Positions 2,393-11,330 of a stretch of 14,809 nt of DNA are shown piece by piece. Positions within the stretch are counted from its first letter, which is position 1; every line of letters starts with the position of its first letter. Position numbers and translations under genes: made by a program. The DNA is from a bacterium (GTDB taxonomy: Bacteria > Blakebacterota > Blakebacteria > Blakebacterales > Blakebacteraceae): assembly GCA_025774205.1 (NCBI GenBank), contig JALGWK010000026.1, forward strand, positions 1-14,809, given 5' to 3'. A model generated the notes under the pieces. It saw only the letters and a program-made list of their open reading frames with translations. It had not been told where the DNA came from and did not search any database.

Positions 2393-3643
2393 TCAGGGAG
2401 TGATCTCTCCCGCCCGGCCGATGAACCGGCGGAGGAGCCGGTTGAACTTGTCGTCCCATGGGATCTGCTCGCCCCTGATGAACATGGTCTGAACCTGGCT
2501 GGTGTATTCCACCGGGTTCCCGGTCGTGATGAGCAGGTTGGCGACCTTCCCTTCATCGATGCTGCCGAGCCGGTCGTCTACTCCCAGGATGCGCGCCGCG
2601 TCGAGGGTGAGGCAGCTCAGCGCCTTATCCATCGGCAGTCCGAAGGCCACCGCCATCCCGGCTTCGTAGGTGAGGCTGAAGACATTGGCGACTCCGCCCG
2701 AATAGATGGCGAAATCGACTCCCGCCTCATGAAGGAGGGCCGGGGTGGCATAGTGGATATCGTACGGTTCATCCCGTCCCGGGGTGGCGTGGATGCCGCT
2801 GAAGAGGAGCTTCACGTCGTGCTCGACCAGGAAGTCGGTGATCTTCCAGGCGTCGAGACCGCCGCGGATCACGTACTTCAGCCCGAGTTCCTCGGCGAAC
2901 TCCACTGCCTCCTTGATGTCATCCTCACCGCGCGCTTCGAAGATGACGGGCAGCTCACCGGTGACGACCGGGATGAGACCCTCCATGCGGATGTCCCATT
3001 CGAAGTCGGCCAGTTCACCCCGTTCGGCCATCTCCGCCCTGGTCGCGTATGCCTTCCCCTCCATGAAGTAGGCTTTCAGGTCCTCGGCGCGGTTCCCGGC
3101 CCAGTTCACCCTCAGGCCGATCCGCTTCTCGACCGCCATTGCCTGCGGTGTCCAGCCCCACAGGTTGATCAGGCTGTCCCAGCCGGGGATCGGTTCGCCC
3201 CGTCCGTTCAGACCGGTCACTACCGAGGTGAAACCGCCCACCCGCTGGCAACCGAGTATCTCGCTGTTCTGATCCACTCCGATGTACGCCTCGATATGCG
3301 GGTTGTAGGGACCGAGCTCGAAGTTGTCCACCGGCCCGGCCATTCCGCCCGCTTCCTGCAGACCGAGACCGGTACCGGCATCGATCAGGCCGGGATAGAC
3401 GAACAGCCCCGAAGCGTCGAATCGCTCCACACCCGAGGGTATCTGGACGTTCGTGCCGACGGCCGCGATAAGCCCGTCCCTGATGAGGACCGTCCCGTTG
3501 GGGATCGTCCGACCGGAGACGGTCACCACCGTTCCGCCGGTGATCGCCCAGTCGTTCTGCTGCGCCCCCGCGAGCGCGGGGAGCGTGATAATCATCGCCA
3601 GAGCAATCGCCCCGGCGGCGCGTCGTGTCATGCGTGTTCTCAT
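2393..3643 (-). CDS. Exported amidohydrolase-fold protein, metal ligands lost
   Basis: A 416-residue protein, third and last in a minus-strand trio. A signal peptide is evident (RR then a hydrophobic stretch, residues ~6-27, ending ALAGAQQ), so it should act outside the cytoplasm. The amidohydrolase fold is recognisable: an N-terminal beta region (GGTVVTVSG, VLIRDGLIAAVG), then VYPGLID, and a C-terminal return (DRLGSIDEGKVANLLITTGNP). The metal sites are not conserved. The usual HxH after PGLID is replaced (DAGTG, 88-92), the strand-5 His site reads FEAR (E236), the strand-6 His site reads RGG (~261), and the strand-8 Asp site reads YSGG (~316). It is probably not a classical metal-dependent hydrolase. 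The ATG at 3643 is preferred because AAGGAG sits 8 nt upstream; an in-frame ATG ten codons earlier would spoil the signal peptide. The gap to the upstream gene is 26 nt. Confidence 0.85.
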   Translation of the reverse strand: MRTRMTRRAAGAIALAMIITLPALAGAQQNDWAITGGTVVTVSGRTIPNGTVLIRDGLIAAVGTNVQIPSGVERFDASGLFVYPGLIDAGTGLGLQEAGGMAGPVDNFELGPYNPHIEAYIGVDQNSEILGCQRVGGFTSVVTGLNGRGEPIPGWDSLINLWGWTPQAMAVEKRIGLRVNWAGNRAEDLKAYFMEGKAYATRAEMAERGELADFEWDIRMEGLIPVVTGELPVIFEARGEDDIKEAVEFAEELGLKYVIRGGLDAWKITDFLVEHDVKLLFSGIHATPGRDEPYDIHYATPALLHEAGVDFAIYSGGVANVFSLTYEAGMAVAFGLPMDKALSCLTLDAARILGVDDRLGSIDEGKVANLLITTGNPVEYTSQVQTMFIRGEQIPWDDKFNRLLRRFIGRAGEITP

Positions 3644-3651
3644 GGTCACGT

Positions 3652-3657
3652 CTCCTT
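3652..3657 (-). promoter_or_regulatory. Shine-Dalgarno site fixing the start at 3643
   Basis: AAGGAG on the minus strand, 8 nt before the ATG at 3643. It favours this start over the in-frame ATG at 3673, which overlaps the end of the upstream gene. Confidence 0.75.
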
Positions 3658-3669
3658 CCGTTCCGGGGT

Positions 3670-5013
3670 TCATGGTCTGTTCCGGTCACCGCCGTCGGGG
3701 TCGATGACCCAGTCGGCGGCGACATCCGTCGCACTGCGATCGAAGTAGATCTCACCCTCGATGATCGTCATCTCGCAGCGGGCCGCAGTGTGCAGGGGGT
3801 AGTGGCTGAAGATGGCGATGTCGCCATCCTTGCCGAGTTCGATGCTGCCTACCCAACTGTCGATACCGAGGTTCAGGGCGGCGTTGATGGTGATCATCTT
3901 CAGGCACTCGTTCTCCGGCACGCCGCCGTACTTCACTCCGCGGGCCGCTTCCTGGAAGAGCCGGCGGACCCGTTCGGCGGAGTCGGAGTTGATCGAGGTC
4001 CGGACCCCGTGCTCGTAGTGGATCTGCATCTTGTAGGGGATCGCCTCGTAGGCCTCGATCTTGTAACCCCAGCTGTCGGCGAAGACGCTCGTCGCCCAGC
4101 CGTTGCGGGCCAGTTCGGGCGCGATCTTGTAGCCGTCGAGGGCGTGCTCGAAGACCCCGGCGGGGACACCGAACTCGTTGCAGACCTCCATCATCATCGC
4201 CATCTCATCGGCCCGGTAGGCGTGACACCGGATGATGAGCTCACCCCTCAGGGCCTTGGCCATCACCTCCAGCTGCAGGTCGCGCTTCGGGGGGAGGGGA
4301 GCGAAGCCCCGATTGCGGCGGTTGGCGCGGTCCCAGGCCGCCTTCTCCGCCTGATAATCATCCCAGTCATCGATGTAGTTCTGTGCCAGCTGGAACGATT
4401 CCCGCATCACCTCGGCGACGCCGGAGCGACTGCGGGGATAGCGGGTGGGATCGTCGGAGGAGGAGCGGCGCACGTTCTCGCCGAGGGCGAACTTGAGCGT
4501 CCCCGGTGCGTTCTTGATCACCAGTTCCTCCCACGGTCGTCCCCACTTCAGCTTGATCGTCTCATTCTGTCCGCCGATCGAGTTGGCCGAACCGTGCATG
4601 GTGTGGATGGTCGTGATCCCGCCGGCCAGGGCAGTGAAGAAGGCAGGGTCGTCGTGTTTGATCACGTCGGCGATGCTCACCTCCGGCACCACCGATCTCG
4701 ATCCTTCATTGATCCCGCGGTCGACCCCCATGTGGGAGTGGTCATCGAGGATCCCCGGCATCACGAACAGGCCGCGGGCATCGATCACCCTGACCCCCTC
4801 GGGAGCCTCGAGGTTCTGACCGATCCCGGCGATCCTGCCGTCCTTGATGTAGACATCGGTGTCGGTCAGGTTGCCTTCGGTGATCGTCAGAACGGTTCCG
4901 CCCCTGATGAAGAGATCCTGGGCCATGATCGTCTGCGGCCAGACGACGATCAGGCAGAGGATCGTGACCAGGAGAGCAGAGAATGGGCGAACCTTCAGTC
5001 TGGTGACAGTCAT
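3670..5013 (-). CDS. Exported metal-dependent amidohydrolase, ligands intact
   Basis: A 447-residue middle member of the trio and the only one with a complete amidohydrolase metal site. Residues ~11-31 are hydrophobic and end at MAQ, a likely signal peptide. Expected ligands: H92 and H94 (DDHSHMG), bridging lysine K174 in LKFALGENVRR, H264 (IRCHAYRADE), H290 (FEHALDGYK) and D344 (SINSDSAE). The layout resembles imidazolonepropionase-like periplasmic amidohydrolases often found in pairs in Bacteroidota and Gemmatimonadota; the substrate cannot be read from sequence. An insert at ~210-245 is rich in charged and aromatic residues. The start at 5013 has GGGAGGG 7 nt upstream and overlaps the stop of the preceding gene (ATGA), so the two are translationally coupled. 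It is probably the catalytic unit of the operon. Confidence 0.88.
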   Translation of the reverse strand: MTVTRLKVRPFSALLVTILCLIVVWPQTIMAQDLFIRGGTVLTITEGNLTDTDVYIKDGRIAGIGQNLEAPEGVRVIDARGLFVMPGILDDHSHMGVDRGINEGSRSVVPEVSIADVIKHDDPAFFTALAGGITTIHTMHGSANSIGGQNETIKLKWGRPWEELVIKNAPGTLKFALGENVRRSSSDDPTRYPRSRSGVAEVMRESFQLAQNYIDDWDDYQAEKAAWDRANRRNRGFAPLPPKRDLQLEVMAKALRGELIIRCHAYRADEMAMMMEVCNEFGVPAGVFEHALDGYKIAPELARNGWATSVFADSWGYKIEAYEAIPYKMQIHYEHGVRTSINSDSAERVRRLFQEAARGVKYGGVPENECLKMITINAALNLGIDSWVGSIELGKDGDIAIFSHYPLHTAARCEMTIIEGEIYFDRSATDVAADWVIDPDGGDRNRP

Positions 5014-6671
5014 CGTTCCACCCTCCCTTCACCGGTTCCTGCATCCGGTTTCCGCATACCTGTCAATTCTGCGCTGCCCGTCGTGCCGAGCCCGAGCGAT
5101 CCGCTCATCTTGTCACCCTCGACGGTCGCAGTGAGGGTGACCGCTCCCAGGTCGGGGATCGAACCCTTCAGGTTCAGTTCTCCACCACTGAAGGACCCTT
5201 CGAACTCGATCGTCAGACCTGCGATGGTGAGTTCTCCGGTTACCTGATCACCGGTCTGATCGAGGATCAGATCACCTTCGGCCGCCTCACCCATCATCGA
5301 GACGCTGACCGTCCACTCTCCACCAACCGCCCCGCCGCCGCCGGTCGCGCGTGGTTTCGGCGCCTCGAAGGTCTCCTTGCGCCCGTCGATGAAGACATGG
5401 GCGATCCAGGCTTCTTCGTCGGTAAAGACGTCTCCGCTGGTGACCGTGAGGTTGGCGATCTTGCCCGGTTCGAGCGTGCCGAGCATGTCGGACACCCCGA
5501 AGATCGAGGCGGGATTGACGGTCAGCGCCTTCAGCGCCTCTCCGGCCGGCAGTCCGGCTTCAACCGAGGTCCGCAGGTTCTTCAGGAAGCTGTCGACACT
5601 CCGCATGCCGCCGGTACCGAGCGCGAAGGGCACACCGGTTCCGTAGACGACCGCGGCGTTGGAATGAACGGCCGTTTCGTCACGCTCATCGAGCGCCTCC
5701 GTCTCCGCCTCGTCGAGGTTCCGGTAGGCCCGGTCGAACCAGTAGCCGGTAACCTGGTTGATGGAGGGGAAGTTGAGGGAGACGAGGATCGGCACTCCCG
5801 CCGCCTCGATGAGGTCGGGGACGCGGAAGGCCTCTTCGGCGCCGGCGATCCAGTAGCTGAGACTGTATTCGGCCACCAGGCTCCGCAGACGCTTGAAGTC
5901 GTTCTCGAGATGGACGATGCCGAGCACCGGTGCCTCGCCCTTCGCCACCGGGATGAGTGCCTCCAGGTCGGGATCGGCCGGTGGCCGGGCCATCGAGCGG
6001 GGCTCCCGACTGTAGCGGGTCAGGAGGAGGTTGTGATACGAGGCGTCGATCAGCGTCTGACGCTGCCAGGCCACGACCGCCATCAGGGTGCCGGGGTAAT
6101 CCCCCTGTCCCTCGTAGCCCATGACCTGAACCACCGGGGCCCTGACGGTCATCGAGGGGACATCCCCGCCCATCAGGTTTATCAGAACTGCCTGGCCGCC
6201 GAAGACACCGTCACTTCGGGCAACCAGAGCCGTGGTCAGCCCCTGTTGCCGGTAGGCGGCGAGGTCGTCAGAGGCGGGGTCGAAATGATCGGTCGCCAGT
6301 CTGCTGGCGATATTGCCGGCGTGTTCCCTCTCCTGGCGGTCTGGCAGTGCCAGCCCGGCCTGGGAGTAGGCGTCGATGAATCCCGGATAGACCGTCAATC
6401 CCTCCCCGTCGACGAGTACCGCGTCGGCGGGAGGGCTGATGTTCGCCCCGAGGGCCTCGATGAGGCCGCCTCGCAGGACGATGGTCCCGCTCTCGATGAT
6501 CGGACCGGTACCGGTCACGAGCCGCGCGCCGGTGACGGCGTAGACCCGGCCTTCGTACTGGGCCGAAACATCAGAGAGGGGTAACAGGATCACGACGGCG
6601 AGAGCCGGCAGCAGCAGGCGTACCGCTCTCGGGAACAGTGGCCGATCCCGATGGGTCACGGGTCTCGGCAT
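5010..6671 (-). CDS. Exported amidohydrolase-fold protein with C-terminal beta domain, metal ligands lost
   Basis: A 553-residue first gene of the trio. Residues ~15-38 form a signal peptide ending at VSAQYE. The amidohydrolase fold is clear (ARLVTGTG, YPGFID, PVLGIVHLENDF, GTLEPGKIANLTVTSGD). As in the third gene, metal ligands are missing: the HxH position reads YSQ (102-104), the strand-5 His site is I252, the strand-6 His site is A277, and the strand-8 Asp site is in GTGG (~353-355). After a glycine-rich linker (TGGGGAVGG) comes a ~95-residue beta-rich domain (GEWTVSVS..., DQTGDQVTGEL..., GDKMSGSLG), a lipocalin-like strand pattern common at the ends of such exported hydrolases. The ATG at 6671 is chosen because AAGGAGG lies 8 nt upstream; an in-frame ATG at 6689 would place that site inside the gene. 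Its role is probably binding or structural. Confidence 0.85.
   Translation of the reverse strand: MPRPVTHRDRPLFPRAVRLLLPALAVVILLPLSDVSAQYEGRVYAVTGARLVTGTGPIIESGTIVLRGGLIEALGANISPPADAVLVDGEGLTVYPGFIDAYSQAGLALPDRQEREHAGNIASRLATDHFDPASDDLAAYRQQGLTTALVARSDGVFGGQAVLINLMGGDVPSMTVRAPVVQVMGYEGQGDYPGTLMAVVAWQRQTLIDASYHNLLLTRYSREPRSMARPPADPDLEALIPVAKGEAPVLGIVHLENDFKRLRSLVAEYSLSYWIAGAEEAFRVPDLIEAAGVPILVSLNFPSINQVTGYWFDRAYRNLDEAETEALDERDETAVHSNAAVVYGTGVPFALGTGGMRSVDSFLKNLRTSVEAGLPAGEALKALTVNPASIFGVSDMLGTLEPGKIANLTVTSGDVFTDEEAWIAHVFIDGRKETFEAPKPRATGGGGAVGGEWTVSVSMMGEAAEGDLILDQTGDQVTGELTIAGLTIEFEGSFSGGELNLKGSIPDLGAVTLTATVEGDKMSGSLGLGTTGSAELTGMRKPDAGTGEGRVER
5021..5027 (-). promoter_or_regulatory. Shine-Dalgarno site inside the upstream gene's 3' end
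   Basis: GGGAGGG on the minus strand, 7 nt before the ATG at 5013. It lies within the last codons of the preceding amidohydrolase-fold gene, consistent with coupled re-initiation at the ATGA overlap. Confidence 0.65.
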
Positions 6672-6679
6672 GGGATGAT

Positions 6680-6686
6680 CCTCCTT
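6680..6686 (-). promoter_or_regulatory. Shine-Dalgarno site fixing the start at 6671
   Basis: AAGGAGG on the minus strand, 8 nt upstream of the ATG at 6671. It argues against the earlier in-frame ATG at 6689. Confidence 0.8.
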
Positions 6687-6710
6687 CATGATTGAATTTC
6701 TGGCGGGTGG

Positions 6711-8574: not shown

Positions 8575-8694
8575 ACCCCTGAAAGTAAGCCCGGATCGGG
8601 CGCCACTCAAGAGCATCATTATGACTGCTGCTCTCGTATATGGAAGAAGCGCGGATCGGGACGCGCGGCCCTGATTGTGAAAGGAAGTATTTCG

Positions 8695-9114
8695 ATGAGT
8701 GCGCATTTCCGTCGCTGGATGGTTGAGCTGGGATCCGAGTGCGGTCATGAGGATGTGACGGAGACCGTACGCGAGGTGGTAACCGAATCGGGCGTCACGA
8801 CCGGTCTGGTCACGGTGGGGATGGCCGGATCGACCGGGGGCGTCACGACGATCGAATATGAATCGGGCGCCCTGAAGGACCTGTGGCGGGCGGTCGAACA
8901 ACTCGCTCCCGCCGACGGGGAGTACATGCACAACCTCAAGTGGGGCGACGGCAATGGCTTCTCACATGTGCGCAGTGCTCTGCTCAAGACAAGTCTGTCG
9001 GTCCCGGTCATCAACGGCGAACTCTATCTGGGAACGTGGCAGCAGATTACCGTTTTCAACTTCGACAACCGCTCACGCCGAAGGGAGATAGCCGCGGTCG
9101 TGGTCGGCGAATAG
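8695..9114 (+). CDS. yjbQ: YjbQ-family (UPF0047) protein, variant without the usual active-site His
   Basis: A 139-residue protein matching the YjbQ/UPF0047 family, annotated as secondary thiamine-phosphate synthase from weak activity of E. coli YjbQ; the physiological role is unsettled. The C-terminal half carries the signature: WGDGNGFSHVRSALL, SVPVINGELYLGTWQQI and DNRSRRRE. The characteristic HT(S/T)A motif at the middle strand reads AGSTGGVTTIEYE, so the histidine is absent; a GST...VTTIEYE form is, as far as I recall, a recurring subfamily in archaea and actinobacteria. The ATG at 8695 has AAGGA 9 nt upstream; an in-frame GTG at 8677 overlaps that site and is rejected. The tandem DsrC-like gene follows 59 nt downstream on the same strand and may be cotranscribed. 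Confidence 0.88.
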   Translation: MSAHFRRWMVELGSECGHEDVTETVREVVTESGVTTGLVTVGMAGSTGGVTTIEYESGALKDLWRAVEQLAPADGEYMHNLKWGDGNGFSHVRSALLKTSLSVPVINGELYLGTWQQITVFNFDNRSRRREIAAVVVGE

Positions 9115-9173
9115 TGCTGACCTGACCCCCTAGAACTGGTGCAGATCGTGAGTTAGATTACGATCCGGAATCG

Positions 9174-9812
9174 GTGACCTTCGGCGATACCACCTTCACC
9201 CTGGACAACCACGGATTTCTTGATCCATCCGATCAGTGGGATGAGGTGTTTGCCGAAGGTATGGCCATGATGCAGGGTATTTACGGTGGTCTTACCGATG
9301 AACAGTGGAGTTTCATCCACTATCTCAGGAAGCAGTTCCTGGAAGAGGAAACGGTTCCGGTGGTGGTACTTGCCTGTGCTGACAACAAACTCAGGCTCGG
9401 CGACCTGAGGTTTCTCTTTCCGACCGGCTATCACCGGGGGGCCTGCAGGATCGCCGGGATCAATTACGATTTCATGTACCAGACGAACATCTGGTTGACC
9501 TATGAGACTTCCACCCTCCTGCAGGAAGAGTTCAAGCTCACCCCCCGCGGATTCCTGGAGGACTTCGGCCAGTGGAACGAGCGGTTCGCTCATCTGATCA
9601 TCCGTGAGTGGCAACTGACGCAGGGCCTCACCGAAAGACATCTGGAGATCATCGCATACCTGCGGACCTACTTCGCCAGGACGAAGAATATCCCCACCAT
9701 CATCGAAACCTGCAGAGAGAATGATTTCGACCTGGAGGAATTCCGGGAACTCTTCCCGGATGGCTATCGCCGGGGAGCCTGCCGTATAGCCGGACTGCCC
9801 TTCTTCGGCTGA
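9174..9812 (+). CDS. Tandem DsrC/TusE-like two-domain protein
   Basis: A 212-residue protein built of two DsrC/TusE-like domains. Each has the family plan: GFL...QW, LT(D/E)xxWxxI or equivalent, a YLR helix, an LFP motif, then G-Y-x-R-G-A-C-R-I-A-G. Repeat 1 is residues ~1-100 and repeat 2 ~113-212, an offset of 112. C91 and C203 match the DsrC CysB position. C68 and C180 form a second pair at equivalent sites, again 112 apart. The penultimate CysA of DsrC and TusE is missing: repeat 2 ends right after AGLPFFG and repeat 1 continues as AGINYDF. Ordinary DsrC is ~105-115 residues. Lack of CysA argues against the classical trisulfide or persulfide carrier role; family members without CysA have been proposed to be regulatory (RspA). 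The GTG start gives a normal domain 1 edge but only a weak GGA upstream, so the start is uncertain by a few codons. Confidence 0.8.
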   Translation: MTFGDTTFTLDNHGFLDPSDQWDEVFAEGMAMMQGIYGGLTDEQWSFIHYLRKQFLEEETVPVVVLACADNKLRLGDLRFLFPTGYHRGACRIAGINYDFMYQTNIWLTYETSTLLQEEFKLTPRGFLEDFGQWNERFAHLIIREWQLTQGLTERHLEIIAYLRTYFARTKNIPTIIETCRENDFDLEEFRELFPDGYRRGACRIAGLPFFG

Positions 9813-9887: not shown

Positions 9888-11330
9888 ATGAAGAGAACCG
9901 TTCTGCTCCTCGGATGCCTGATTGCTCTCGGTGCCGCCTCCTCGCAGGCTGCTGCCCAGACTCAGTCGATTACCCGTTCCTCCGAACTCATGCAGGTCTA
10001 CCACTCCATCTCGAGCCACGATCTCCTGGCCTATGCCGCCGAGCTGAGTGATGAAAAATACGGCGGTCGACTCTCGGGAAGTCCGGAGTACATGGCGGTT
10101 GCGGAGTGGGTGGCCTCCCGGCTCAAGGAGTGGGGACTCGAGCCGTACGGGGATGACGGCACGTTCTTCCAGATGTTCGACAATCCCCACAGCGAGGTCT
10201 TCGATTCCGGCGCTCTTTCAGTTCGGATGGAGCAGGAGGGAGAGGAACTGACCATCGGATATTCCTTCCCCGAGGACTACTTTCCCGGATCGAATTCGGA
10301 TGCCGGGACCGTCACCGGTGAAGTGGTCTACGTCGGATACGGTATCACGGCTCCCGAACTGGGGTACGACGATTACGCCGGTCTCGATATTCAGGGCAAG
10401 ATCGTGGTGATCGATTCCGGAGTTCCCTTCCAGGGTGAGGATGACGAGTTCGTGAAGTGGGTCCCCTACAGTTACCACCAGTTAAAACTGGACAATGCCC
10501 GCCGGCACGGCGCCGCGGGTCTCCTCTATAACAGCAAGATCGCCAATCCCAACACCTCCTTCAACGAGGAGCTCGTCTACTGCCATATCGATCAGCACGT
10601 GACCGATCATCTCTTCTTCGGGACCGGCCGGGACCACACCATCACGGCGTCGATCCGACGTCACCCCGATTCCAGATCGTGCAATGTCATCGGTCTCATC
10701 AGGGGTTCCGATCCCTCGTTGCAGGATGAGGTCATCCTGGTGGGCGGACATCTCGACGGGGTCGGGGACCTGGGCCAGGTGATTCCGGGAGCGCTCGACA
10801 ACGCCTCCGGATGCGCCGACATGCTCGCGGCCGCCCGCGCCCTGGCGGCCTCTCCGGTGAAGCCGAAACGCTCGATCATGTTCATCTTCATCGGGGGCGA
10901 GGAGTGCGGTCTCCTGGGCAGTTACCACTACTGCGCGAATCCCCGCTTCCCCCTGGAGAAGACAGTGGTCTACTTCAACCTCGACATGGTCGGCCACGGC
11001 ACCGGACTCTCGGTCGGAGGGGGAGAGACATATCCGGGGATCGCACGGCATTTCGAGGCGGTGAACAGTGATCTCCTGCATCGCGCCTTCCGGATGTCGG
11101 CCTCCCGGTCATCGGTCGGCCGCCCGAGGAGCGACTCGGTCATCTTCAACCGGGCCGGATTCCGGACCATGAGTTTCGGCACCTCCGGCCGGGTCCCGGG
11201 TATCAGGACGTCCTACCATCATCCCGATGACACGATCGGGACCCTGACCCCCGAGATCATGGAGGATGTGGCGAAGCTGATGTTCCTGGGGCTGCTCGAT
11301 CTGGCCAATGACACCGGGCTGGAGTTCTGA
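9888..11330 (+). CDS. Exported M28-family zinc aminopeptidase-like peptidase
   Basis: A 480-residue secreted metallopeptidase. Residues 1-23 are a signal peptide (KRTVLLLGCLIAL... ending AAAQ). A PA-like insertion (~135-260; GYGITAPELGYDDY, GLDIQGKIVVI, AGLLYNSK) precedes the catalytic core. M28 residues are all present: H288 and D290 (GGHLDGVG), bridging D304 (ALDNASG), catalytic/ligand E338-E339 (GGEECGLLG), D366 (NLDMVGH) and H444 (SYHHPDDT). It should remove N-terminal amino acids from peptides outside the cytoplasm; the substrate is unknown. There are few cysteines in the core and no extra C-terminal domain. The start ATG has only a weak upstream purine stretch. yggS begins 3 nt after its stop, so the two may be cotranscribed. 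Confidence 0.92.
   Translation: MKRTVLLLGCLIALGAASSQAAAQTQSITRSSELMQVYHSISSHDLLAYAAELSDEKYGGRLSGSPEYMAVAEWVASRLKEWGLEPYGDDGTFFQMFDNPHSEVFDSGALSVRMEQEGEELTIGYSFPEDYFPGSNSDAGTVTGEVVYVGYGITAPELGYDDYAGLDIQGKIVVIDSGVPFQGEDDEFVKWVPYSYHQLKLDNARRHGAAGLLYNSKIANPNTSFNEELVYCHIDQHVTDHLFFGTGRDHTITASIRRHPDSRSCNVIGLIRGSDPSLQDEVILVGGHLDGVGDLGQVIPGALDNASGCADMLAAARALAASPVKPKRSIMFIFIGGEECGLLGSYHYCANPRFPLEKTVVYFNLDMVGHGTGLSVGGGETYPGIARHFEAVNSDLLHRAFRMSASRSSVGRPRSDSVIFNRAGFRTMSFGTSGRVPGIRTSYHHPDDTIGTLTPEIMEDVAKLMFLGLLDLANDTGLEF

Follow-up and report, generated by a model that had tools for sequence, protein, structure and literature searches.

A gene that fuses two DsrC domains and lacks the sulfur-binding cysteine in both raises the question of what its product does. 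In ordinary DsrC, CysA of the C-terminal arm first binds sulfur and next forms a pair with CysB; DsrMK reduces the disulfide or trisulfide that results. The gene described here lies in a window of 14,809 nucleotides, the whole stretch of DNA that was analysed, which is the entire contig C47 of a 3.09-Mb genome that is 86% complete (hereafter G000). Homologues of the tandem protein, their cysteines and their gene neighbours point to a tentative answer, in which the protein serves a DsrMK-type complex as a partner and not as a substrate.

Two DsrC domains in one protein

An earlier note on this DNA had described the product of 212 residues as two fused DsrC-like domains with an offset of 112 residues, and the open reading frame, the PF04358 profile and a gapless alignment of the repeats agree with that description (Table 1). 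When each half is searched in isolation against PF04358 (cut-off, 24.9 bits), repeat 1 matches with an E-value of 3e-16 (about 60 bits) and repeat 2 with an E-value of 9e-18 (about 65 bits). The TIGR03342 profile (cut-off, 53.5 bits) gives 95.6 bits for the whole protein and slightly less than the cut-off for each half alone. A gapless alignment pairs residues of the two repeats that are exactly 112 positions apart, with a local score of 179; the highest score in 1000 shuffles is 48, ruling out a chance likeness of the two halves.

The predicted structure likewise returns the DsrC fold for repeat 1, which superimposes on crystal DsrC 3or1_C with an rmsd of 1.4 Å over 101 residues. The model (AlphaFold2, three sequences) has a mean pLDDT of 76.5, with low confidence in the linker of residues 100–117, and the eight top structural matches of the predicted tandem fold all belong to the DsrC family. 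Thus, a profile score over the cut-off and a predicted DsrC fold place the protein in the DsrC/TusE/DsvC family, while its two domains and 212 residues set it apart from single-domain DsrC (about 105–115 residues).

Between the tandem genes of the window genome and its congener, dN is 0.060 and dS is 0.726 (dN/dS about 0.08; NG86). The repeats taken apart give a dN of 0.051 and a dS of 0.810 for repeat 1, and a dN of 0.071 and a dS of 0.652 for repeat 2 (NG86). Because dN is low relative to dS in each repeat, both are under purifying selection.

Table 1 Positions of the tandem DsrC gene, its domains, cysteines and flanks in the window, and of DsrC(Y) genes at related loci
Feature	Position	Strand	Evidence or remark
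Tandem DsrC gene	9174..9812	+	GTG start, 212 residues; ORF call, profile matches
DsrC domain, repeat 1	9183..9461	+	PF04358, 59–60 bits; fold match 3or1_C, Z 17.0
DsrC domain, repeat 2	9522..9800	+	PF04358, 64–65 bits
C68 codon, internal Cys site of repeat 1	9375..9377	+	Cys in 14/14 tandem repeat-1 sequences
C91 codon, CysB of repeat 1	9444..9446	+	Cys in 14/14 tandem repeat-1 sequences
C180 codon, internal Cys site of repeat 2	9711..9713	+	Cys in 13/14 tandem repeat-2 sequences
C203 codon, CysB of repeat 2	9780..9782	+	Cys in 6/14 tandem repeat-2 sequences, Val in 8/14
YjbQ/UPF0047 gene, left junction flank	8677..9114	+	Ortholog in G001:C260, upstream of DsrMK-like operon
Sequence of about 50 bp resembling an IS3-like IS end	9117..9167	+	88% to G002:C17, 84% to G001:C193; IS by inference
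M28 peptidase gene, right flank	9888..11330	+	Downstream of tandem in G000 and G001; synteny with G001:C45
DsrC(Y) genes at related loci	L103:12959-13273, L105:4603-5007, L106:10452-10817, L029:1462-1776		Each upstream of a DsrM-like gene

Distribution and origin of the family

Sequence and profile searches of about 860 genomes found tandem DsrC in 12 of them, from six families and at least five phyla: G000, its sister genome and congener G001 (record JALGVQ01), G042 (Deltaproteobacteria bacterium RBG_13_61_14; record MGQK01), G026, G101, which holds three copies, G458, G459, G460, G463, G468, G574 and G791. In G026 the gene is split between two frames, close to a stretch of eight G in the linker (L008:1780-1960); the break may reflect a sequencing error, slippage or a real frameshift. 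By tblastn, tandem DsrC is absent from phage and plasmid records, and a viral scan with canonical DsrC gave no match. A phage survey has reported one DsrC that carries just the first of the cysteine motifs (PMC8190135).

In a midpoint-rooted tree of 72 domains, the 28 repeats of the tandem proteins form one group apart from all 44 single domains (support 100/99). Being repeat 1 requires one label change on the tree (in 80% of bootstrap trees), and being repeat 2 requires two (one in 36%). The tree, which has long branches and rests on few alignment columns, is most simply read as a single duplication and fusion, after which the pair spread as one unit. The sequence data support a genuine and conserved family of its own, made up of fused DsrC pairs without CysA.

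The hosts tend to carry dsr genes, with dsrA scoring over its cut-off in eight of the 12 tandem-bearing genomes. No dsrA match is present in the two f265 genomes without a tandem gene, and the f24 genomes have dsrA fragments only, together with dsrMKJOP-like genes and dsrC.

Loss of CysA and retention of CysB

The cysteines were compared in an alignment of the 44 single DsrC/TusE domains with the 28 repeats of 14 tandem proteins, namely 13 intact tandem ORFs and the two frames of G026. C91 and C203, which the earlier note had taken as CysB equivalents, both lie within a GACRIAG motif that fits the pattern GxC[KR]xAG. The CysA arm (LPKPTGC(V) at its end) is missing from both repeats, as had also been claimed: repeat 1 continues with INYDFMYQ and repeat 2 terminates with LPFFG. 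This absence extends to all 14 tandem proteins, because the arm is found in none of the 28 repeats, compared with a cysteine in the CysA column of all 44 single domains. The sole cysteine of a tandem repeat in that column, in one repeat 1 of G101, is an unrelated linker residue. The distinctive trait of the family, as read from this alignment, is the complete loss of CysA with CysB kept in repeat 1, which is the inverse of TusE.

The symmetry of the cysteines holds less well across the family. The duplication is conserved in the homologues, and C68, C91 and C180 (the last in 13 of 14) are the best-conserved cysteines of the tandem proteins. However, C203 is a cysteine in only six of 14, with valine in the other eight, so that fully symmetric pairs are not a family trait. 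The "extra" cysteines C68 and C180 are indeed where the earlier note had placed them, but their site is not new. It is a cysteine in 27 of 28 tandem repeats and in 23 of 44 single domains, and all of these 23 are ordinary DsrCs bearing both CysA and CysB (23 of the 30 CysB-bearing single domains). The dsrC of the window genome itself has it (RKLCKATD). The proposal of a new cysteine pair was rejected on these counts. Because the internal cysteine is common in ordinary DsrCs, it is inherited and is no invention of the tandem protein.

A DsrMK-like operon as the proposed partner

The earlier note had seen no dsrAB, hdr or tus genes nearby. Within the window this stands, as no dsr, hdr or tus gene was found there, tusBCD neighbours included. 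Elsewhere in G000, however, dsrA (570 bits; cut-off, 393 bits) and a cluster of sulfur genes are present. The cluster runs in the order aprA (a partial ORF; 580 bits, cut-off 642 bits), QmoA-like and QmoB-like HdrA proteins, qmoC, sat, an OsmC-like gene, dsrC and dsrM. Its dsrC is normal, with both CysA and CysB, and a TusE-type single protein is additionally encoded on C50. This gene content indicates that the host is a dissimilatory sulfate reducer. In the sister genome, moreover, DsrM-like and DsrK-like (Hdr-type) genes lie directly upstream of the tandem gene. The idea that the protein has no Dsr context was rejected for these reasons, and the absence of such genes from the window is read as a local loss.

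In G001, a contig end cuts off a DsrK-like gene, whose 3' part lies directly before the tandem gene, and the end of contig C260 overlaps this contig end in 57 of 58 bases inside the same dsrK-like gene. The joined sequence encodes ispH, yjbQ, an ECF sigma factor, a likely anti-sigma factor, two more genes and DsrC(Y), followed by the DsrM-like, DsrK-like and tandem DsrC genes, the M28 peptidase and yggS. The order DsrC(Y), DsrM-like, DsrK-like, tandem DsrC recurs in G458, G460 and G463, with an Rrf2 gene inserted between the DsrK-like and tandem genes of G458. In G459, DsrK-like, Rrf2 and tandem genes follow one another, and the remainder of the operon is broken by a gap in the assembly. This operon is seen only in the lineages of the window genome and of f265; clade B, which comprises the tandem proteins with valine at CysB of repeat 2 and is made up of those of G026, G101, G042, G468, G574 and G791, is without it.

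The DsrM-like proteins score 103–106 bits against cytob_DsrM (cut-off, 300 bits), and the DsrK-like protein of G463 scores 342 bits against DsrK (cut-off, 400 bits). Because these scores are below the cut-offs, the proteins are relatives of DsrMK and not canonical subunits. The DsrK-like partner has the complete HdrD-type motif CX34CCX39CXXC (L105:5744-7099), whereas the canonical DsrKs of G026, G101 and G042 read CxCAID in place of its CXXC. No J, O or P subunit was seen in the operon. DsrC(Y) is a single-domain DsrC of a separate clade (support 100/99) that keeps CysA and has tyrosine in place of CysB in all four operons (GAYRLAGLPRPxGCL). The cysteines of the two DsrC-type proteins are thus reciprocal: DsrC(Y) has CysA without CysB, and the tandem protein has CysB without CysA.

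Because it has no CysA, the tandem protein should be incapable of DsrC-type sulfur carriage and of the normal intramolecular bond, and the only cysteines left for its CysB to react with would be that of the internal site and the CysA of another DsrC. We tentatively favour a reading in which the tandem protein is a non-substrate, CysB-presenting partner of a DsrMK-type complex, although we do not regard it as established. The protein would be a DsrC paralog that has abandoned the substrate role and offers its CysB to the CysA of a partner DsrC, producing an intermolecular disulfide or persulfide bridge. A DsrMK-type complex, as a compact membrane thiol/disulfide reductase, would reduce or oxidise this bridge, and the fused pair would serve to bind two partners or two faces of a single complex. 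The co-encoding of a CysA-only DsrC(Y) with a DsrMK-like complex suggests that such a bridge is handled by that complex. The favoured reading also draws on published work, in which sulfur is bound by CysA alone in DsrC and CysB is essentially confined to organisms with DsrAB (PMC3397948), on the occurrence of dsrA in tandem-bearing genomes and on the purifying selection of both repeats. A stricter version, in which one DsrC is split between CysA in DsrC(Y) and CysB in the tandem protein, and the disulfide or trisulfide reduced by the DsrMK-like complex spans the two, is unlikely in our estimate. CysA-only DsrCs of the TusE type are common, and so the reciprocity with the tandem protein could be a coincidence. 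The favoured reading is also weakened by the restriction of the operon to two lineages, clade B being without it, and by the lack of DsrC(Y) and of a close DsrK-like ortholog in G000, where the tandem gene nevertheless shows no excess change.

Regulators, hydrogenases and a desulfurase as neighbours

Besides the DsrMK-like genes, the neighbours of tandem genes are varied. Rrf2 genes lie directly upstream of the tandem gene and in the same orientation in G458, G459, G468 and G574. In two clade B genomes, G026 and G101, the tandem gene lies inside a [FeFe]-hydrogenase operon: NuoE-like and NuoF-like subunits, HydA and a response regulator precede it, and a GAF histidine kinase with a PilS-like part of six transmembrane helices and then a HydG-like radical SAM protein follow. 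Two tandem-DsrC genes stand consecutively in the hydrogenase operon of G101 (L043:3882-10969; the G101:C124 locus with regulators). A PAS histidine kinase adjoins the tandem gene on contig C50 of the same genome, a response regulator is near that of G791, and nothing informative adjoins that of G042.

The recurrence of regulators next to the tandem gene makes the main rival a thiol-state sensor or adaptor that would convey a redox or persulfide state to an Rrf2 protein, response regulator or histidine kinase through C68, C91 and C180, without electron transfer. We consider it somewhat unlikely, though it is the most serious alternative. It would account for the conservation of just these three cysteines and for regulators at loci of both clades (G458, G459, G468, G574, G026, G101 and G791). 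However, the loci of G001, G463 and the window have no such regulator directly adjacent; regulators are frequent neighbours by chance, and none is known to bind DsrC. The recurrent neighbours do point to redox or regulatory work, as the earlier note had suggested, but not on the basis of a new cysteine pair.

A further rival is raised by G468, in which the tandem forms the C-terminus of a natural cysteine desulfurase-DsrC-DsrC fusion of 622 residues (L109:742-2610). The desulfurase part scores 412.5 bits against TIGR01977 (cut-off, 377 bits), and the gene lies in a cluster of Rrf2, the fusion, TtrB/DsrO-like, PhsA-like, dsrA and normal dsrC genes. A fusion inside a dsr-containing cluster is consistent with a sulfur relay, in which persulfide from a cysteine desulfurase would be loaded onto C68/C180 or CysB and passed on, as in TusE but with another acceptor cysteine. 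This is improbable, because the fusion is seen once and DsrC accepts sulfur on CysA only, CysB being dispensable for it (PMC3397948).

The junction beside the tandem gene

In the window, yjbQ is followed by the stretch of about 50 bp and then the tandem gene, with nothing else between. A 7.2-kb block of G001 with the DsrC(Y), DsrM-like and DsrK-like genes sits where the window has this stretch. The block has no match in G000, at 86% completeness, and its flank matches at 79%. Neither DsrC(Y) nor a close ortholog of the DsrK-like protein was found in G000 (best match, 45%). Homology to G001 restarts about 12 bp before the GTG of the tandem gene, and the first eight codons of the G001 gene are not retained. 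The copy of the stretch at G002:C17 is followed, at the end of a contig, by a start codon and the peptide VARKRFTPEQIINHLREA; this peptide and the TGACCTGACCCCC terminus resemble what we take to be an IS3-family element. The best reading of the junction is that a deletion at the IS-like end removed the partner block. Alternatively, an assembly fault at the repeat, together with the gaps of the incomplete G000, may account for it. Elsewhere in the window, three long consecutive ORFs of secreted appearance lie on the minus strand (2393-6689); that at 2393-3673 matches the amidohydrolase family, and the others look alike.

The missing block, the IS-like end at the junction and the shortened 5' end could mean that the tandem gene of G000, and of G000 only, is an orphaned relic. 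This is quite improbable, since the reading frame is uninterrupted, no key residue has been lost and the branch shows no acceleration: the end branches of the tandem are 0.06 and 0.05 in G000 versus 0.053 and 0.12 in G001, with no excess change. A gene without adjacent partners that shows no decay leaves two readings of the favoured partnership with a DsrMK-type complex. Either other DsrC and DsrK proteins of G000 are now used in place of the missing partners, or the loss is recent.

A DNA-binding pseudo-dimer, in which two HTH-like DsrC domains are fused to bind operator DNA, is very improbable: although a role of dsrC in rdsr expression has been suggested (PMC4411801), repeat 2 resembles HTH proteins only weakly in structure, with Z of at most 5.3, a level typical of common helical arrangements that is not taken as evidence, and the most conserved residues include cysteines.

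Comparison with known systems

The retention of CysB with CysA always missing, across several phyla, suggests an independent function for CysB. Judging by its relatives in at least five phyla, the protein may be a so far undescribed partner of the machinery for sulfur respiration, with a redox or regulatory task. The candidates for what it works with are a DsrMK-like complex, a CysA-only DsrC, redox regulators and a cysteine desulfurase. No report of a tandem or of a CysA-less, CysB-bearing DsrC family was found in the open-access literature on DsrC, which is weak evidence of novelty. For annotation, matches to TIGR03342 or PF04358 should be read with caution, because they include proteins unable to carry sulfur like DsrC or TusE.

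The tandem protein resembles DsrC (2v4j, 3or1, 1sau) in its fold, the CysB motif GACRIAG, the internal cysteine site and its dsr-bearing hosts. It differs in having two fused domains with the CysA arm in neither, in not being encoded with dsrAB, and in reading FPxGY for FPxGP. With TusE, a component of the tRNA 2-thiouridine relay, it shares the PF04358 domain and the presence of only one of the two classical cysteines. However, CysB is the one that is kept, in place of CysA in TusE, and no tus genes are adjacent. Because the CysA arm is absent, the tandem protein is neither DsrC nor TusE in the strict sense and is still a member of the PF04358 domain family. Its ancestral operon resembles the DsrMK, TmcBC and HdrDE-type membrane complexes in pairing a DsrM-like protein with a DsrK-like protein that carries the CCG motif, here as partners of the tandem protein. 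It is distinguished from them by scores under the DsrM and DsrK equivalog cut-offs, by an operon in which no J, O or P subunit was seen and by CXXC in place of CxCAID. If real, a bridge between CysA of DsrC(Y) and CysB of the tandem protein would be a protein counterpart of the heterodisulfide of methanogens.
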